A DNA stretch of 64,000 nucleotides. Origin: Melioribacteraceae bacterium. GTDB taxonomy: Bacteria; Bacteroidota; Ignavibacteria; Ignavibacteriales; Melioribacteraceae. Shown here piece after piece: positions 47,668 through 58,530 of the stretch. The first letter of the stretch is position 1, and the number at the start of each line of letters is the position of its first letter. The DNA lies in assembly GCA_021739765.1 (NCBI GenBank), contig JAIPBD010000005.1, positions 124,001 through 188,000 of the forward strand. The letters are read 5' to 3'. The position numbers were made by a program, and so were the translations under genes. The notes beneath the pieces were generated by a model, which saw nothing but the letters and a program-made list of their open reading frames with translations, did no database searches and was not told where the DNA came from.

Positions 47668-49215
47668 ATGAATTACCCTGTTTGGGATGTCTCCTTCGGC
47701 TCAGGATTACTAATTGCGATTATTTCAGTAGTTCACGTATTTGTATCTCATTTCGCTGTCGGTGGAGGATTGTTCCTCGTCCTTACCGAAAGAAAAGCAT
47801 ATAAGGAAAACAATTCACAACTAGTAGGCTGGCTCAAAACCCACTCAAAGTTTTTTGTCCTTCTCACAGTTGTTTTCGGAGCTATTACGGGCGTGGGGAT
47901 TTGGTTCACAATCGCCTTAGTTAATCCGTCAGCTACCAGCGCTTTAATACATGCTTTTGTGTGGGGTTGGGCGATTGAATGGGTTTTTTTCTTCCTTGAA
48001 ATCACGGCCGCATTGCTCTATCTCTACGGATGGAAAAGGTTGGACAAACAAACTCATATCTGGATAGGTTGGATTTACTTTTTAACTGCATTTTTATCAA
48101 TGGTGGTAATAAACGGCATAATTACTTTTATGCTGACTTCCGGAAATTGGGTTGAATCAAAAAATTTCTGGGATGGATTTTTCAATCCTACTTATTGGCC
48201 ATCGTTATTTATCCGTTTTGCTTTCTCATTATCTCTTGCCGGTTTATATGCTTTAATAACGATAAGTAGAATTAAGGATTCCGTATTTAAGTCGTTTGTG
48301 GCAAAATGGAGTTTGAAATGGGTTCTTCCATCATTCATTTTACTTCCCATATTTGCTTATTGGTACGTTGCTAATATTCCCGTTGAATTATTTCAAAGTA
48401 CAAATGGATTGATGGCGACAGCGACTCAGTATGCCACTCTGATTTCAATTTTTGCCTTAATAACATTTTTACTCGCGTTAGTTTACTATTTTTTTACATC
48501 GAAAATCAATCTACTATTTAGCCTGCTTATTCTGATCACCGCATTTGTTACGATGTGGTCTTTTGAGTTCATCCGCGAATCGATCCGAAAACCGTATGTT
48601 ATAGCAAATTACATGTATGGTAATTCTATTTACACTGAATCATCAGATTTTGATCAAGGATTTTCAATTGAAAAAATTAATGAGAATGGAATCCTAAATA
48701 CAGCTAAATGGACTTCAATCAAGAAAATTAAGAAGGAAAATAGCATTCAAGCAGGCGAAGAAATTTTCCGCGTGGAGTGTTTAAGCTGCCACACCTACGA
48801 TGCTTACCGAGGCGTAAGGAATCGATTAATAGATAGAGGGTGGGATAAAAATATAACATCACAAATGATCTCTCGGATTGAACACATGCAGAAAGGGATT
48901 ATGCCGCCATTCGCCGGATTTGAATCAGAAAGAGAATCTCTCTCAGACTATTTACATAATAATATCAGTCAAAGTGAATTGAGTGCCTTTAAAAGTGGAA
49001 AAGGATTATTCGATAAATATTGCCAAGTTTGTCACCAATATAGCTCTGATGATCCCGTATTTTTTGTCCTTACAGGAGCTGATCGGGAGGAGGTTGAATA
49101 TTATTTAACTGATCTTCAAGGAATGAATGATTTGATGCCAAATCTGGTCCCAAACAGTAAAGAAATAGAAATTATGATGGATTGGTTTCCCAAACAATTT
49201 ATCAATCAAAATTAG
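47668..49215 (+). CDS. CydA-like membrane protein with C-terminal di-heme cytochrome c domain
   Basis: 515 residues with about eight transmembrane helices (first 300), then a soluble domain with two c-type heme motifs, CLSCH (371-375) and CQVCH (452-456), and a likely Met ligand in IMPP. Aligned by eye to E. coli CydA, His23 matches the H19 heme ligand. Glu104 and Glu111 match the E99/E107 pair (AIEW, FFLE), and IRESIRKPY matches the AEYGRQPW region. The heme b558 histidine (H186) reads Arg183. The ninth CydA helix is missing, which would place the heme domain in the periplasm. The likely role is a terminal oxidase or related oxidoreductase exchanging electrons with cytochrome c. AGGAGG-linked partner gene nine bases on. 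AATGGAGGA precedes its ATG. Confidence 0.75.
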   Translation: MNYPVWDVSFGSGLLIAIISVVHVFVSHFAVGGGLFLVLTERKAYKENNSQLVGWLKTHSKFFVLLTVVFGAITGVGIWFTIALVNPSATSALIHAFVWGWAIEWVFFFLEITAALLYLYGWKRLDKQTHIWIGWIYFLTAFLSMVVINGIITFMLTSGNWVESKNFWDGFFNPTYWPSLFIRFAFSLSLAGLYALITISRIKDSVFKSFVAKWSLKWVLPSFILLPIFAYWYVANIPVELFQSTNGLMATATQYATLISIFALITFLLALVYYFFTSKINLLFSLLILITAFVTMWSFEFIRESIRKPYVIANYMYGNSIYTESSDFDQGFSIEKINENGILNTAKWTSIKKIKKENSIQAGEEIFRVECLSCHTYDAYRGVRNRLIDRGWDKNITSQMISRIEHMQKGIMPPFAGFESERESLSDYLHNNISQSELSAFKSGKGLFDKYCQVCHQYSSDDPVFFVLTGADREEVEYYLTDLQGMNDLMPNLVPNSKEIEIMMDWFPKQFINQN

Positions 49216-49224
49216 GAGGAGAAA

Positions 49225-50331
49225 ATGGATATACAAACGATTATACCATCTGTAGACCCGATTTCATTACCTGCTCCATATTGGTTGTTTAAACTTTTGC
49301 TAATTGTGACGTTTGTGTTACATATTATCGCTATGAATATCGTATTCGGTGGAAGTATCATCGCGTATGTTGCTAAATTGAAGGGAAAAACGAATGACAA
49401 TTTTAAAAAGTTATATTCGGATCTGGCAAAAAAACTGCCGACATTTCTCGCGGCTACAATTACTTTAGGCGTAGCACCCCTGCTTTTTTTGCAGGTAATT
49501 TACGGACAGTATTTTTATACATCTTCCGCAATAATTGGCTGGCCGTGGTTTTTAGTGATAATCCTTTTAATTATAGCTTACTATGGATTTTACATAATCG
49601 CCTTCAAAGGGAGCGAGAATAATAAATATTTGGGTTGGATTTTATTACTTTCAAGTTTTTGCATTGTATTAATTGGATTTATTTATTCGAATAATTTGAC
49701 ATTAATGTCAACTCCCCAATTTTGGTCTCAAAAATATTTTAGAGATCCGACCGGAATGAATTTGAATCTTAATGAATACACATTGATTCCCAGATACCTT
49801 CACTTTGTCACCGCCGCAATCGCTGTTGGCGGATTATTTGTCGCGATTCTAGGTGTGTTCAAATGGGGCACAGAAAAAGACTACGCGAAGTTTTTAATAA
49901 ACTTTGGCGGAAAATGGTTTACCTATGCAACTATGCTACAATTTGTGGTTGGCATTCTCTATTTAATAATATTGCCTAAAGAACAGATGATGACGTTTAT
50001 GGGCGAAAATATATTCGCTACTGTTTCATTCCTAGTTGCATTAACTGCGGCGCTAGGTTCTATTTTTATAATTTTCAGCTCCACAAAAAATGAGGATCCC
50101 AGAAAAGGGATTTACATTGGGACTTCATTACTTGTTCTCGTCTTAGTTTTTATGTCAATCATGCGAGATTCACTCAGGGATTCATATCTTTCGGAATATT
50201 TTAATCCCGATCTTTTTTTAACTGCAACACAGTGGGATGTTTTAGGAATTTTTCTATTTCTATTTTTAGGTGGAATTGCATTATGGATTTTCATGCTAAA
50301 AGTATATTTTAGAAAACCGAATTTTAATTAG
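49225..50331 (+). CDS. CydA-related membrane partner subunit
   Basis: 368 residues with about nine transmembrane helices and no soluble domain. It is not an ordinary CydB. Its first helix has LHIIAMNIVFGG with His33 nine residues before a Gly, the same spacing as the H19 motif of CydA. A later helix starts YLHFVTAAIAVGG, with His193 where CydA has its b558 His186, and Met237 (YATMLQF) may match the other b558 ligand. The Glu pair of CydA is absent. It seems to be a second, complementary CydA-like half. GGAGGAGA lies just before the ATG; nine bases follow the upstream gene. Confidence 0.65.
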   Translation: MDIQTIIPSVDPISLPAPYWLFKLLLIVTFVLHIIAMNIVFGGSIIAYVAKLKGKTNDNFKKLYSDLAKKLPTFLAATITLGVAPLLFLQVIYGQYFYTSSAIIGWPWFLVIILLIIAYYGFYIIAFKGSENNKYLGWILLLSSFCIVLIGFIYSNNLTLMSTPQFWSQKYFRDPTGMNLNLNEYTLIPRYLHFVTAAIAVGGLFVAILGVFKWGTEKDYAKFLINFGGKWFTYATMLQFVVGILYLIILPKEQMMTFMGENIFATVSFLVALTAALGSIFIIFSSTKNEDPRKGIYIGTSLLVLVLVFMSIMRDSLRDSYLSEYFNPDLFLTATQWDVLGIFLFLFLGGIALWIFMLKVYFRKPNFN

Positions 50332-53193: not shown

Positions 53194-53302
53194 TCATGAA
53201 ATCGATGGATATTATTTATAGCATTTGAAAAATTTAGCCACATTTGTAATTTACCATAATTACTGCATAAGTTGATTGTTATTCCAAAATACGAAAGGTA
53301 AT

Positions 53303-55426
53303 ATGTCGAAGACAAAATTGAACTTATTAATAATATTGTTTAGTGGAGTTTTATTCTCGCAAGAAATCAGATTTGTGAATAATGTAGCTGTTCCCAAGGA
53401 TTTCCCGGAACTGGATATTTCAATTTCGACTGAAAATGCATCTCAAGACAAAATATTATTGGCGAGCCGAGGCAAGAATTCTTATTTGTTAATATTTGAA
53501 AATGATGGAACGCCGTATTTTTATCAAAAATTAGATTATGTTCCTTTTGATTTTGCGCTTCAACCAAATGGTCTTTTTACTGTTGCAGCCGCCACACAAT
53601 CTTTCGCCATTGATTCTACTTTCACACGTGTAAAAGATTTTCAAATTCCAAACGACTATTCCACTGATCCTCATGAATTGTTGATGACTGCGGATGGTCA
53701 CTCAATATTGTTAGCAATTACGAGAAGCCAATATGATATGCGAATCGCGATCGAGGGTGGAAATGCAAATGCCACTGTGCAGGATAATATTGTATATGAA
53801 CTGGATGAGAACGATAATGTAATATTTGAATGGAACACCATTGATAATTATAAACCCGGTGATGCCATTCACGAAAATCTATTAAATTCATATATTGATT
53901 ATGCCCATATAAATTCCATTGCAATTGATTATGATGGACATTTTATTATTTCCAGCAGACACCAATCAGAGATTACAAAAGTAAATCGCCAAACCGGTGA
54001 AATAATTTGGAGGTTCGGTGGACAGAATTCGGATTTCACCTTATTTAATGAAACGGAGTGGTTTTCTTATCAGCACGATGTTCGTCCTGTAAAAGACAAA
54101 CCAAATTATTACACCCTTTTTGATAATGGAAATCACAACAGCCTAAAATATTCCAGAGTTATAGAATTTTATCTCGACACATTAAACATGAGAGCGGAGA
54201 AGATTTGGGAATACATCCCCGAGTTTGATACAAAGGTTCCGTTTATGGGCTCAACCAGAAGATTGGAAAGTGGAAATACTTTAATCGACTGGTCTGATCC
54301 CCGTCTACCACAAATAATGGAGGTTGATCGTTATGGACGGATATTTTTCGAAGCGAGATTCAAAATTCCCCTCGATAGTTACCGCGCGCATCGAATTAAA
54401 TTTAATGGTGTAGCTGATGCGCCGCATCTTGTGGTTGAACCAAATTCGACAAATGTTAATTTTATTTACAACAAATTCGGTGATAAAAACGTAGAAAAGT
54501 ACATTATCTATTTTGGTTTCGAAGAAGATTCTATGAATCCGTGGGATACAACTTCGTTGCCGTACACTTCAATTAATGGACTTGAAAATTATAGACGTTA
54601 CTTCGCGAAAGTAAAAACGATAGACAGCTTGGGCGCAGAGAGTGATTTTTCAAATATCGTTTCTTTTCGGACGAATTTTAACATTCCCGGGACTAATTTA
54701 GTTAAAAATGGCAATTTTGAAGAGGAATTGACATTCTGGACGCATTCCTTCGAAAACTCGGCCACCGGCGAAGTTTTAGTAAATCAAGATTCTGAATTAC
54801 TAATTTCTATTTCAAACAGTGGAACTGATTACGAAGACGTAGCCATTTCACAAAATAATTTGCCGTTATTACAAGGTAAGAGATATATTTTCACTTTTGA
54901 TGCATATTCAACTGAAAATCGCATTTTAGAAGCAGTTGTTGTATCGGAGGATGCGCAACCGGTTAACTATGGAAAAATTGGTTTAACCGCATTATCGAAA
55001 AACAAAAAACAGATTTCATACGAGTTTATAATGGAATCGGAAGATGATTTGAATTCAGTTATTAAATTTAACTGCGGCGGCTCACTGGGCGATATTTTTA
55101 TCGATAATATAAGTCTAAAGGAAGATATCCAAACAAATTTGGAGAAGGAGATTGCCGAACCCTCAGAAATTACTTTGCTCCAAAATTACCCGAACCCCTT
55201 TAATCCCATTACAATAATAAGTTTTACTCTCCCACATCGATCAGATATTTCGCTTAGAGTTTATGATTCTTTAGGAAAAGAAATCGCAGTTTTAATCGAT
55301 GAAAATAAAAACGCCGGAATTCACTCAATAAATTTTAATGCTTCTTTTCTCTCCAGCGGTGTATATTTCTATCAATTACAAAGTGAAGATTTTATATCAG
55401 TGAAAAAAATGTTACTGATAAAGTAA
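53303..55426 (+). CDS. Arylsulfotransferase-like T9SS cargo protein
   Basis: 707 residues from ATG 53303 (GAAAGG upstream); a frame from 53276 adds no signal. Signal peptide near 5-19. The arylsulfotransferase-type propeller (about 25-400) has PHELL (His124), AHINSIAIDYDG (His202), SSRHQSE (Arg219, His220) and YQHDV (His258), so the His-rich site seems intact. A beta domain follows, then the T9SS sorting domain from about 628 (NYPNPFNP, ending KKMLLIK). It should be exported by SprA-type T9SS. It is similar along the propeller to the next gene. Confidence 0.8.
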   Translation: MSKTKLNLLIILFSGVLFSQEIRFVNNVAVPKDFPELDISISTENASQDKILLASRGKNSYLLIFENDGTPYFYQKLDYVPFDFALQPNGLFTVAAATQSFAIDSTFTRVKDFQIPNDYSTDPHELLMTADGHSILLAITRSQYDMRIAIEGGNANATVQDNIVYELDENDNVIFEWNTIDNYKPGDAIHENLLNSYIDYAHINSIAIDYDGHFIISSRHQSEITKVNRQTGEIIWRFGGQNSDFTLFNETEWFSYQHDVRPVKDKPNYYTLFDNGNHNSLKYSRVIEFYLDTLNMRAEKIWEYIPEFDTKVPFMGSTRRLESGNTLIDWSDPRLPQIMEVDRYGRIFFEARFKIPLDSYRAHRIKFNGVADAPHLVVEPNSTNVNFIYNKFGDKNVEKYIIYFGFEEDSMNPWDTTSLPYTSINGLENYRRYFAKVKTIDSLGAESDFSNIVSFRTNFNIPGTNLVKNGNFEEELTFWTHSFENSATGEVLVNQDSELLISISNSGTDYEDVAISQNNLPLLQGKRYIFTFDAYSTENRILEAVVVSEDAQPVNYGKIGLTALSKNKKQISYEFIMESEDDLNSVIKFNCGGSLGDIFIDNISLKEDIQTNLEKEIAEPSEITLLQNYPNPFNPITIISFTLPHRSDISLRVYDSLGKEIAVLIDENKNAGIHSINFNASFLSSGVYFYQLQSEDFISVKKMLLIK

Positions 55427-55644: not shown

Positions 55645-58530
55645 ATGAAAGATGTATTCCGATTTTTAGTTTTATTTGCGATCACACTCAATGCCCAAGT
55701 TAAGGATTATGAATTTCTTAATCCCCGACCCGGTTCATCATTCAATACTCTTGAAACAACAATTACCATTCGAGAAGGAAGTATTGTTGATGTTTCAAAA
55801 ATTACACAAGATTTGATCATAGTGAGCGGATCTAAAAGTGGAAATATTAGTGGCCGTATAATCCTTGCCGATGATGGTCGAACCCTGGTCTTTAAACCAT
55901 CTAAACCATTTATTTACGGGGAAAATATTAACGTCACGATCAGCAAAAACCTTAAAAATTCAGACCCGGAACATTATTCAGATGATTCGTTCAATTTTCA
56001 AACCATAAAAAAAGAACAAATGGCCACTTCTATTAGTACTTTTAGTGATGAATACTTCCCGAACAAGAAACAAAAAATTGGGGCATTTACCACTAATGAT
56101 TTTAGATCGCTCCCGGTTCCTGAGATTGAGATTGATACCGTAAATAACCCAAGACCGGGCACAATTTTTCTTGCTACTTGGGATAGAAATGTTCCTGCCA
56201 AATATGCGAATTTTATATTCGTCTTAGATAATCAAGGGAATATTTTAGATTCGGTTCGGGTAAATGGAGCCCCGTTTGATTTACGAATCCAACCCAACGG
56301 TTACCTTTCTTATGCTTTCGGCGATTTTAGCGGAAACGTACCGGGTGCCGGCGAAAAACTTAGATATTTGATAATGGACGATAATATAACTGTTATCGAC
56401 AGTTTTGAAATGAAAAATGGCTATCCGACGGATTTTCATGAATTACAATATCTGCCAAACGGTCATGCACTTATTATGTCCTATTTGCCGATAACTTATG
56501 ATATGAGTGCAATTGTTCCCGGTGGAAGACCCGACGCTTCGTTAATACTTAATATAATTCAGGAACAAGACAAAGATAAAAATGTTGTTTTCGAGTGGAG
56601 AAATATTGATTACATCCCGATCACAGATTCTGATGCTGATTTGACTGCTTCCAGAGTAAATTATAGTACGTTAAACGCATTTGAAGTCGATTACGATGGA
56701 AATATTCTCGCTTCCTTCCGTGAACTCAGCGCTATTATGAAAATCAATCGTTCCAATGGTGAAATAATGTGGAATTTTGGGGGAAAGAATAATGAGTTTG
56801 CGATAACAGGTGAACACGAGGAAAACGCACCGTATTATTTTTCACGTCAACATGATATAACACGATTGCCAAATGGTAATATCACAATATTTGATAATGG
56901 TCAATTTCATAAGCCGCCATATTCAAGAGGAGTTGAGTATGAAATTGATGAAATTAATAAAACTGCTGATATGGTTTCTGAATTTCGATATCCCGGTCAA
57001 AACGTATTTGCCGCTGCTGCCGGAAATGCGCAAAAATATGATGATGGAGGCTGGTTCCTCGGCTTTGGGATACTTCATCCCCAAAGTCCGGCGGTAAATG
57101 TTGTTGAGTCACACCCTGAGGGATCGATTGCGTTTCAATTATCTTTGCCCAAAAATGTAATTTCTTATAGGACATCTAAGCAACTTTGGAAAGATGATGT
57201 GGAAGCACCAACTGTAAGCATTTTTGAATCAAATCAAGGTAATACGTATGAGTATGCCTCAGATACTATTAATACCGGAGTAAGTGTTGAATTTATTTTA
57301 CTTGATGGTGAAGCTTATAATTCGAGTACAATAACACGATTTCCTTACGGACCAAAAAAACCGGAATTTTTGGATGATAAAGTAACTATTTACCCTGTAT
57401 CAGTTCTATACGAAGGAGCAGCCATCTATTCTCAAAATGCAGAATTTCGTTTCGATTTGGACTATTTCCCCCAGATTAAAGACCCGCAGAATACAATGGT
57501 TTATTGGAGAAATTTTGCGAATCAAGGATTGTTTGTTTCAAAATCAACTACTTATGATGATGTATACAATGAATTAGTCGCTAATCTTAATAATTTCGGA
57601 GAAATTGTTTTTGGCGTGTTAGGAGGAGATTTTACGCCGGACCTTCCCATTTTATATGAACCAACGAATCAACAAAAATTGATTCTTCAAAACGAAATTG
57701 CGGTTAGATGGACAGGTAGGGGCAAATATGATTCGTTTAATCTTCAAGTCTCAACCGATAGTTCGTTTTCAACAACTCTTTTTTCTGAAAATACAAATTT
57801 ATCTTATTTCAAATTGACAGGGTTGGATGAGAATTCAAAATATTTTTGGCGCGTGAATTCTGAAATTAACGGAGTATCAAGTGATTGGTCTGATGTTTGG
57901 AGTTTTATGATCACCGATCCATACTTAGATTTATCCGCACCAAATGGAGGGGAATCTTGGGCGGTCGGATCATCCCAGATTATTCGCTGGGAGACAAACA
58001 TTTTAGATAGTGTTATAATTGGATTGGAAAATGGATCAGATGTAGGAAAAATTATCGGTACGGAATCGGGAAATCTTAAGGCATTCCAATGGAATATTGA
58101 AAGTGAGAACGCTGTTGATGACAATTACAGAATCCATATTTATTCTCAAGCGGATACGAATTTATCTGATAGAAGCTCAAATTCATTTTCAATTATCGAC
58201 ACGGTAAGCTCATTTCAAGATAATGTTTTACCGAAAGAATTTGAACTCAGCCAAAATTATCCGAACCCTTTTAATCCTTCAACCAAAATTTCTTTCAGCA
58301 TTCCGGAGAGTGGGGGGAAAATTCTTCAGACTTCATTAAAGATTTATGATGCACTCGGGAACGAAATCGCAACTCTTCTCAATCGTTCTCTAAGTTCGGG
58401 TAAACATTCGGTTGATTTTAATACAGCGAATTTATCAATTGGAAAGGGTGGACTGACAAGCGGTGTTTATTTCTATAAATTGCAAAGTGGTGATTTCATC
58501 AAAGTAAAAAAAATGCTAGTGCTTAAATAA
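55645..58530 (+). CDS. Arylsulfotransferase-like T9SS cargo protein, multidomain paralogue
   Basis: 961 residues. Signal peptide (1-18), an SbsA-type Ig-like domain (about 25-120), then an arylsulfotransferase-like propeller (about 165-510). A fibronectin-III-like domain (about 665-755), a PNGGESW-type domain (about 760-850) and the T9SS sorting domain from 871 (NYPNPFNP to KKMLVLK) follow. Compared with its neighbour, His265 and His403 are kept but Thr342 and Glu360 replace two histidines. It may have lost sulfotransferase activity. A terminator follows. Confidence 0.8.
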   Translation: MKDVFRFLVLFAITLNAQVKDYEFLNPRPGSSFNTLETTITIREGSIVDVSKITQDLIIVSGSKSGNISGRIILADDGRTLVFKPSKPFIYGENINVTISKNLKNSDPEHYSDDSFNFQTIKKEQMATSISTFSDEYFPNKKQKIGAFTTNDFRSLPVPEIEIDTVNNPRPGTIFLATWDRNVPAKYANFIFVLDNQGNILDSVRVNGAPFDLRIQPNGYLSYAFGDFSGNVPGAGEKLRYLIMDDNITVIDSFEMKNGYPTDFHELQYLPNGHALIMSYLPITYDMSAIVPGGRPDASLILNIIQEQDKDKNVVFEWRNIDYIPITDSDADLTASRVNYSTLNAFEVDYDGNILASFRELSAIMKINRSNGEIMWNFGGKNNEFAITGEHEENAPYYFSRQHDITRLPNGNITIFDNGQFHKPPYSRGVEYEIDEINKTADMVSEFRYPGQNVFAAAAGNAQKYDDGGWFLGFGILHPQSPAVNVVESHPEGSIAFQLSLPKNVISYRTSKQLWKDDVEAPTVSIFESNQGNTYEYASDTINTGVSVEFILLDGEAYNSSTITRFPYGPKKPEFLDDKVTIYPVSVLYEGAAIYSQNAEFRFDLDYFPQIKDPQNTMVYWRNFANQGLFVSKSTTYDDVYNELVANLNNFGEIVFGVLGGDFTPDLPILYEPTNQQKLILQNEIAVRWTGRGKYDSFNLQVSTDSSFSTTLFSENTNLSYFKLTGLDENSKYFWRVNSEINGVSSDWSDVWSFMITDPYLDLSAPNGGESWAVGSSQIIRWETNILDSVIIGLENGSDVGKIIGTESGNLKAFQWNIESENAVDDNYRIHIYSQADTNLSDRSSNSFSIIDTVSSFQDNVLPKEFELSQNYPNPFNPSTKISFSIPESGGKILQTSLKIYDALGNEIATLLNRSLSSGKHSVDFNTANLSIGKGGLTSGVYFYKLQSGDFIKVKKMLVLK

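Follow-up and report, generated by a model that had tools for sequence, protein, structure and literature searches.

A CydA-like protein with a haem c domain and its CydA paralogue: a probable cytochrome c-fed oxygen reductase of the bd superfamily

In a 64,000-nucleotide stretch of the genome of a Melioribacteraceae bacterium (contig JAIPBD010000005.1; the whole stretch is called the window below), two adjacent plus-strand genes, A (47668..49215, 515 amino acids) and B (49225..50331, 368 amino acids), lie nine bases apart. An earlier note on this DNA had given both open reading frames (ORFs) the coordinates that we find, and had read their products as complementary CydA-like halves of one complex. 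Judging from sequence comparison and gene order, we think that two CydA paralogues are probably combined here in a heterodimeric oxygen reductase of the bd superfamily that takes its electrons from cytochrome c. The predicted catalytic subunit is A, which has about eight predicted helices and, in a C-terminal domain (predicted periplasmic), two CxxCH motifs for haem c. B, the second paralogue, has nine predicted helices and no relevant Pfam or NCBIfam match. This reading draws on homology, ligand conservation, the pairing of the two genes, and lineages in which genes for a Rieske protein and a cytochrome b separate B from A. The two products are indeed paired CydA paralogues with complementary ligands, but the halves are unequal, the full predicted catalytic set being held by A.

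Protein A and the oxygen-reducing site

Against Pfam, window A matched PF01654 (Cyt_bd_oxida_I) over residues 15-200 (E 1.2e-8) and PF13442 (cytochrome c family) over residues 359-429 (E 1.2e-11). At least 507 relatives of A turned up in a scan of named genomes, and the best 80 were kept as loci for neighbourhood counts. Of the 80 rows in the alignment of A (A4), one is the window and 79 come from 77 loci; L076 and L080, where a tandem double A is followed by a single B, supply two sequences each, and A4 does not include L073, whose A occupies two frames, or L077 and L134, which are cut by contig ends. PF01654 was matched by 80/80 of the A sequences and PF13442 by 78/80. When A was compared with the sequences of solved structures, a weak match to a bd-type quinol oxidase subunit I (5doq_A, E 0.002) was obtained.

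The alignment-averaged hydropathy profile of A contains seven main segments upstream of the haem c region; the last one is 43 residues long and we read it as two helices, giving eight. This agrees with the earlier description of two CxxCH motifs after about eight helices. The first motif, CLSCH (C371-H375, 48778..48792), has both cysteines and the histidine in 80/80 sequences, and the likely axial ligand of its haem, Met412, is Met in 79/80. The second, CQVCH (C452-H456, 49021..49035), is found in some relatives only. Depending on lineage, one, two, three or eight CxxCH motifs are present per A protein. The eight-motif form, in which a long C-terminal tail is fused to A, was seen in L125, L126, L130, L131, L148, L232, L233, L235, L239, L240 and L242; in the order to which L130 (titled Desulfobulbaceae) belongs, 11 of the fetched regions come from outside the probable cable bacteria described below, and 6 of these 11 have the long-tail fusion.

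Ligand sites were mapped onto A by hhalign against 32 canonical CydA sequences, and conservation was counted in A4. The canonical profile was drawn from 30 loci and 6 other sequences; a motif filter removed L157, L158, L162 and L167. Positions are named after what we take to be the E. coli CydA numbers (His19, Glu99, Glu107, His186, Glu445 and Arg448). His23 of A (47734..47736) aligned with the H19-type haem ligand, Glu104 (47977..47979) with the Glu99-type residue and Glu111 (47998..48000) with the Glu107-type proton-path residue, as had been proposed by eye, and each is invariant (80/80). Also as proposed, Arg183 (48214..48216) stands at the position of the haem b558 ligand His186, with a one-residue gap beside it, and is likewise found in 80/80 sequences.

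A further motif, E300-F-I-R303-E304-S-I-R307-K-P309 (48565..48594), aligned in helix 8 with CydA Glu445-x-x-Arg448-Q-P, and its residues E300, R303, E304 and R307 are each present in 80/80 sequences. Since the Glu445/Arg448 motif is also in A, the entire O2-reducing site would be located in this protein. The alignment places the haem c domain of A where CydA has helix 9, and indicates that helix 8 with its Glu445-type ligand is retained. Hence the earlier claim that A has haem c instead of helix 9 fits, but the accompanying list of ligands was incomplete, the E304/R307 motif having been overlooked. The columns that form the quinol loop of CydA, between helices 6 and 7, are gaps in both A and B; A has about 20 residues there.

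Protein B and its association with A

The alignment of B (A3) has 65 rows: window B and 64 others, chosen from 71 loci with a B that satisfied a length filter. We left out L062, L068, L070, L083, L091, L100 and L109 by choice, and partial B sequences from L071, L099 and L130 were removed by the filter. None of the 65 sequences gave a bd-family Pfam match; stray weak matches to SpoVAC (2/65) and DUF7937 (1/65) were taken as chance, and assignment of B to a Pfam-known family was rejected. Window B matched nothing relevant in NCBIfam and, among sequences of solved structures, produced a single meaningless match (E 1.3). Its alignment-averaged hydropathy profile contains nine segments, the number of helices estimated previously.

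Profile comparison by hhalign gave 98.0-98.3% for B against A (E 1.8e-13 and 1.4e-14, 289-295 columns), 85.4% for B against canonical CydA and 90.8% for B against a set of 7 sequences that we label OR-N-like. Control sets of CydB (24 sequences), cytochrome b (11), COX1 (5), CtaB (4) and NrfD (2) scored 0.1-1.2% against B and 0.1-1.9% against A. A search with CydA and CydB families had been suggested as a check of the earlier reading; PF01654 was found in all A sequences, and B scored closer to CydA than to CydB. We rejected the possibility that B is a diverged CydB (hhalign 1.2%). A joint alignment of A and B (A5) was discarded, B-only rows having fallen onto the A half. We conclude, from profile comparison alone, that B is a CydA-type paralogue from which the Glu ligands are absent.

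A cytochrome family encoded in caa3 operons scored 97.5% against B, 0.5% against A and 2.1% against CydA; the reach of such profile comparisons is therefore uneven. A member of this kind, a membrane protein with one CxxCH, is encoded by the last gene of the alternative complex III (ACIII)-caa3 or caa3 operon in the window genome (L271:14197-15531, contig C13) and in L267-L270. Its membrane part is a distant relative of B, with no detectable relation to A or CydA, and His33 of B is missing from it by eye.

Two histidines of B had been singled out before. His33 (49321..49323) aligned with the H19-type position and is His in 65/65 sequences; His193 (49801..49803) aligned with His186, the low-spin haem b558 ligand of CydA, and is His in 64/65. 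The helix-8 stretch of B, M310...R314-D315...R318 (50152..50178), has D315 at the Glu445 position and R318 at the Arg448 position; M310, R314 and R318 are each found in 65/65 sequences, and at position 315 there are 39 Asp and 21 His among the 65. In the alignment to CydA no Glu pair is present in B, as stated earlier, and by eye B contains no Met393-type low-spin haem ligand. Met237, previously offered as a possible ligand, was rejected, this position being Met in 17/65 sequences.

The survey of co-occurrence that the earlier note called for ties the two genes closely together. A same-strand B gene was found in 74 of the 80 A loci, 67 of which have the order A-B and 7 the order B-A. The distance to A is at most 300 bp in 73 of the 74, and in L124 two genes lie between; in each of the remaining 6 loci, the contig ends at most 60 bp downstream of A. 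Among 296 genomes of the window's phylum, strong matches to A (E ≤4.3e-26) and to B (E ≤3.7e-14) were found in the same 17 genomes. Weaker matches extended to 26 further genomes for A and 6 for B; the 16 that we read comprised, in our judgement, 6 canonical CydA, 4 OR-N-like proteins and 6 B-like cytochromes. The distance matrices of A and B correlate over 62 pairs (r 0.87; maximum of 1000 permutations, 0.15); L076 and L080 were set aside, as were loci with no row in either alignment. Matched distances of this kind show that the two genes were inherited or transferred together; they do not show contact. From the gene pairing and the matched distances together we infer an A-B heterodimer.

Among the matches listed, the A proteins closest to that of the window come from metagenome-assembled genomes titled Calditrichota/Calditrichaeota or Deferribacteres (62-67%), followed by Acidobacteriota (56-61%); in the tree, the Calditrichota/Calditrichaeota/Deferribacteres group is the sister of window A (support 0.88). 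In the order of L130, an A-type match (E ≤1e-5) was present in 143 of 257 genomes, and outside the probable cable bacteria B lies beside A in 11/11 fetched regions.

Members of the OR-C family of bd-type enzymes carry haem c, and archaeal CydAA' is a quinol-fed complex of two CydA paralogues that is not known to carry haem c. The bd superfamily is split into three families, qOR, OR-C and OR-N, and a quinol site is the mark of qOR (PMC13189123), so that OR-C by implication lacks it. A shows the PF01654 match (80/80) and the conserved active-site ligands of the superfamily; the pair has neither the CydB partner, nor the catalytic-subunit His186, nor the quinol loop of a qOR enzyme. Compared with canonical CydAB, A retains the His19, Glu99, Glu107, Glu445 and Arg448 positions of CydA, whereas CydB is replaced by the paralogue B, the quinol loop is missing from both proteins, and A has Arg at the b558 His186 site and a haem c domain instead of helix 9. 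In lacking the quinol loop and having a haem c domain, A resembles OR-C, a family of CydA-like subunits without quinol site whose proposed electron donor is cytochrome c. A probably belongs to OR-C.

The earlier note could not tell whether the pair belongs to a known group of bd relatives or is new, and this caution was justified. The literature already describes its kind, a two-CydA, cytochrome c-fed bd-type reductase (OR-C/OR-N, CydAA'): use of cytochrome c by bd-type cytochromes has been proposed (PMC9266656), and OR-N CydAA' of Nitrospirota/Nitrospinota, made of two CydA paralogues, is a proposed cytochrome c-fed O2 reductase (PMC10839748, PMC12342949). The bd-like oxidase of N. gracilis has 14 helices (PMC3578206). 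Like OR-N CydAA', A and B are apparently paired CydA paralogues encoded together (74/80 loci; paralogy 98%); unlike its haem c-free chain of about 14 helices, A has about 8 helices and haem c. The OR-N-like proteins that we met (4 sequences, our label) are of about 600 amino acids, contain no CxxCH and, by eye, lack a Glu445-type residue. A description of the A-B pair itself was not found in the literature searched, which is no proof of its absence from print.

Electron input and alternative functions

In L124 (titled Thermochlorobacteriaceae, genome G133), the two genes between B and A encode, as identified from their sequences, a Rieske protein and a cytochrome b. The order B-Rieske-cytochrome b-A was found in 7/7 sampled genomes of the G133 family (L124 and 6 more with A). 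This operon points to electrons arriving via bc-type chemistry and haem c. A second family, f19 (L144-L147), has in 4/4 loci caa3-type genes and a monohaem cytochrome followed by B-Rieske-cytochrome b-A. In the A proteins of these 4 genomes His23, Glu104 (replaced by Gln), Glu304, Arg307 and CxxCH are lost, and Glu111, Arg183, Glu300 and Arg303 are kept; B retains His33 (4/4). Such joint loss is as expected if the lost residues form one electron path, and we read f19 as a lineage in which the whole path was lost together where caa3 took over. The f19 pair is possibly a former oxidase kept as a companion of the bc complex.

In the other 5 of the 15 regions fetched, A and B are adjacent and blastp showed neither a Rieske nor a cytochrome b gene. 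Among the 80 loci, blastp detected cytochrome b in L124 only and Rieske-like ORFs in L124 and L065 only, the one in L065 lying about 3 kb away on the opposite strand. No further respiratory partner was recognised among the neighbour clusters present in at least 4 of the 80 loci. With bc genes confined to few loci, the bc link would be direct in a minority of lineages. Our reading is that electrons enter A either from a bc complex or from a cytochrome c.

Family knowledge and gene order together suggest how a cytochrome c-fed reductase of this type would work, from haem occupancy and direction of electron flow to the reaction, the heterodimer and proton coupling. A would be the catalytic subunit, with His23, Glu104 and Glu304 holding the high-spin haem pair that reduces O2 and Glu111 lying on the route that protons take from the cytoplasm. 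A would have lost its quinol loop and the ligand of low-spin haem b558, and the haem c domain on the periplasmic side would have become its electron entry. This haem c would be reduced by a cytochrome c, or directly by a Rieske/cytochrome b or alternative complex III partner, and its electrons would then pass to the high-spin haems. B would stand in for CydB and may retain one b-type haem, at His193 and/or His33; as the predicted catalytic set is complete in A, the likelier role of B is that of a CydB- or CydA'-like partner, which would carry a low-spin haem at most.

The same components could be run backwards. B would then oxidise quinol, its electrons would reach the haem c of A by way of a b-type haem and leave for a periplasmic or extracellular acceptor, and the complex, having given up O2 reduction, would act as a quinol:cytochrome c oxidoreductase. 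The eight-CxxCH tails of some lineages resemble a periplasmic wire, the order that includes L130 contains many anaerobes, and B has strictly conserved polar residues. Nonetheless, we regard reverse flow as unlikely: the O2-site ligands of A, including that of Glu445 type, are identical in 80/80 sequences, the quinol-loop columns of CydA are gaps in B, and in the 7 genomes with a bc-linked operon its own Rieske/cytochrome b pair can already oxidise quinol.

A role in scavenging nitric oxide or O2, instead of energy conservation, is in our view improbable, although canonical bd enzymes are said to act in the detoxification of both O2 and NO (PMC10839748) and some carrier record titles suggest fen, bog, groundwater or sediment. 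The ligand set of A is that of an O2 site, and no stress or denitrification family was recognised among the neighbour clusters in at least 4 of the 80 loci. We consider it very improbable that the pair mainly gives structure or docking sites to supercomplexes of cytochrome bc or alternative complex III. The f19 loci would suit such a role, since B-Rieske-cytochrome b-A is kept there beside caa3-type genes despite the lost predicted haem ligands of A, as would the distant B relative with its own haem c at the end of the ACIII-caa3 operon of the window genome; but all 80 sequences of the close set keep these ligands of A, and the bc-type genes are restricted to L124 and, for a Rieske-like ORF, L065.

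Several points weigh against the cytochrome c-fed oxygen reductase that we favour. In a divergent set of 13 B proteins from the phylum, His33 is kept in 13/13 and position 193 is His in 3/13; of the two histidines proposed earlier, the second thus holds in the close set but not beyond it, which makes haem in B doubtful. The persistence of f19 A without haem ligands means that A can serve without redox activity. Neither a cytochrome c family nor an oxidase-assembly family was among the neighbour clusters in at least 4 of the 80 loci. The window genome has two COX1 genes, which we read as belonging to one ACIII-caa3 operon and one cbb3-like operon (our names), so that the A-B pair would not be the sole oxidase of the organism. 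Finally, in the literature searched we met no experiment on any family member.

A more specific scenario, which we advance tentatively, is that a duplicated CydA split its cofactor sites. A would have kept the O2 site and exchanged haem b558 for a covalent haem c, and B would have kept the b558-type His and would represent an undescribed subunit family. With an appended haem c module as its electron input, such an oxidase could be rewired by gene arrangement, either through the number of haems c that A carries (one, two, three or eight) or through a Rieske/cytochrome b pair inside the operon, which would give a bc-bd supercomplex without soluble shuttle.

Genomic context, probable cable bacteria and wider significance

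The window genome is 4.54 Mb in size, and A is its only PF01654 match at E ≤1. As the earlier note had it for the locus, no canonical cydB is present: no CydB match over the cut-off was found in the whole genome (best E 0.013). Canonical full-length CydA occurs in 11 of 12 sampled genomes of the same family and is absent from the window genome, which suggests, but does not prove, that the A-B pair replaced it there. The pair is flanked by a GMP synthase-like and a radC-like gene (names from our own reading). Blastp clusters of flanking ORFs across the 80 loci appear unrelated to respiration, the largest (11 loci) being ABC-transporter-like. Elsewhere in the window, 53276-55426 and 55645-58530 encode two arylsulfotransferase-like proteins with C-terminal Por_Secre_tail-type sorting domains.

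Within the order of L130, 13 genomes that form one block (G373-G385) have a divergent form of A. Globin matches were obtained in 12/13 of these genomes, compared with 1/7 other genomes searched alongside; the globin is in frame with five CxxCH motifs in six of the 13 and with two in a seventh, and that of the outside genome with none. A globin-multihaem fusion of this type has been described as unique to cable bacteria (PMC11976967), which are reported to have CydA homologues only and no complete bd oxidase (PMC10030654). We fetched A regions from 9 of the 13 genomes (L223-L231). Their A proteins have one haem c motif and keep His23, Glu104, Glu304 and Arg307, with Glu111, Arg183 and Glu300 lost. 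No B gene was found in these 9/9 regions, in one of which the contig ends beside A; the search for B was confined to them. By these sequence features, the CydA of the probable cable bacteria seen here is of the c-type branch and not canonical. A divergent haem c-bearing A without a nearby B may explain the puzzle of cable-bacteria CydA without CydB.

A is widespread, occurring in many little-studied bacteria. Annotation with Pfam (0/65 B sequences) and NCBIfam (window B) would show a lone CydA with no CydB, and the oxidase might be scored as incomplete; if the two proteins had models of their own, the oxygen use predicted for many genomes would change. The bc-linked operons would offer a direct test of whether a Rieske protein can feed a bd-type oxidase.

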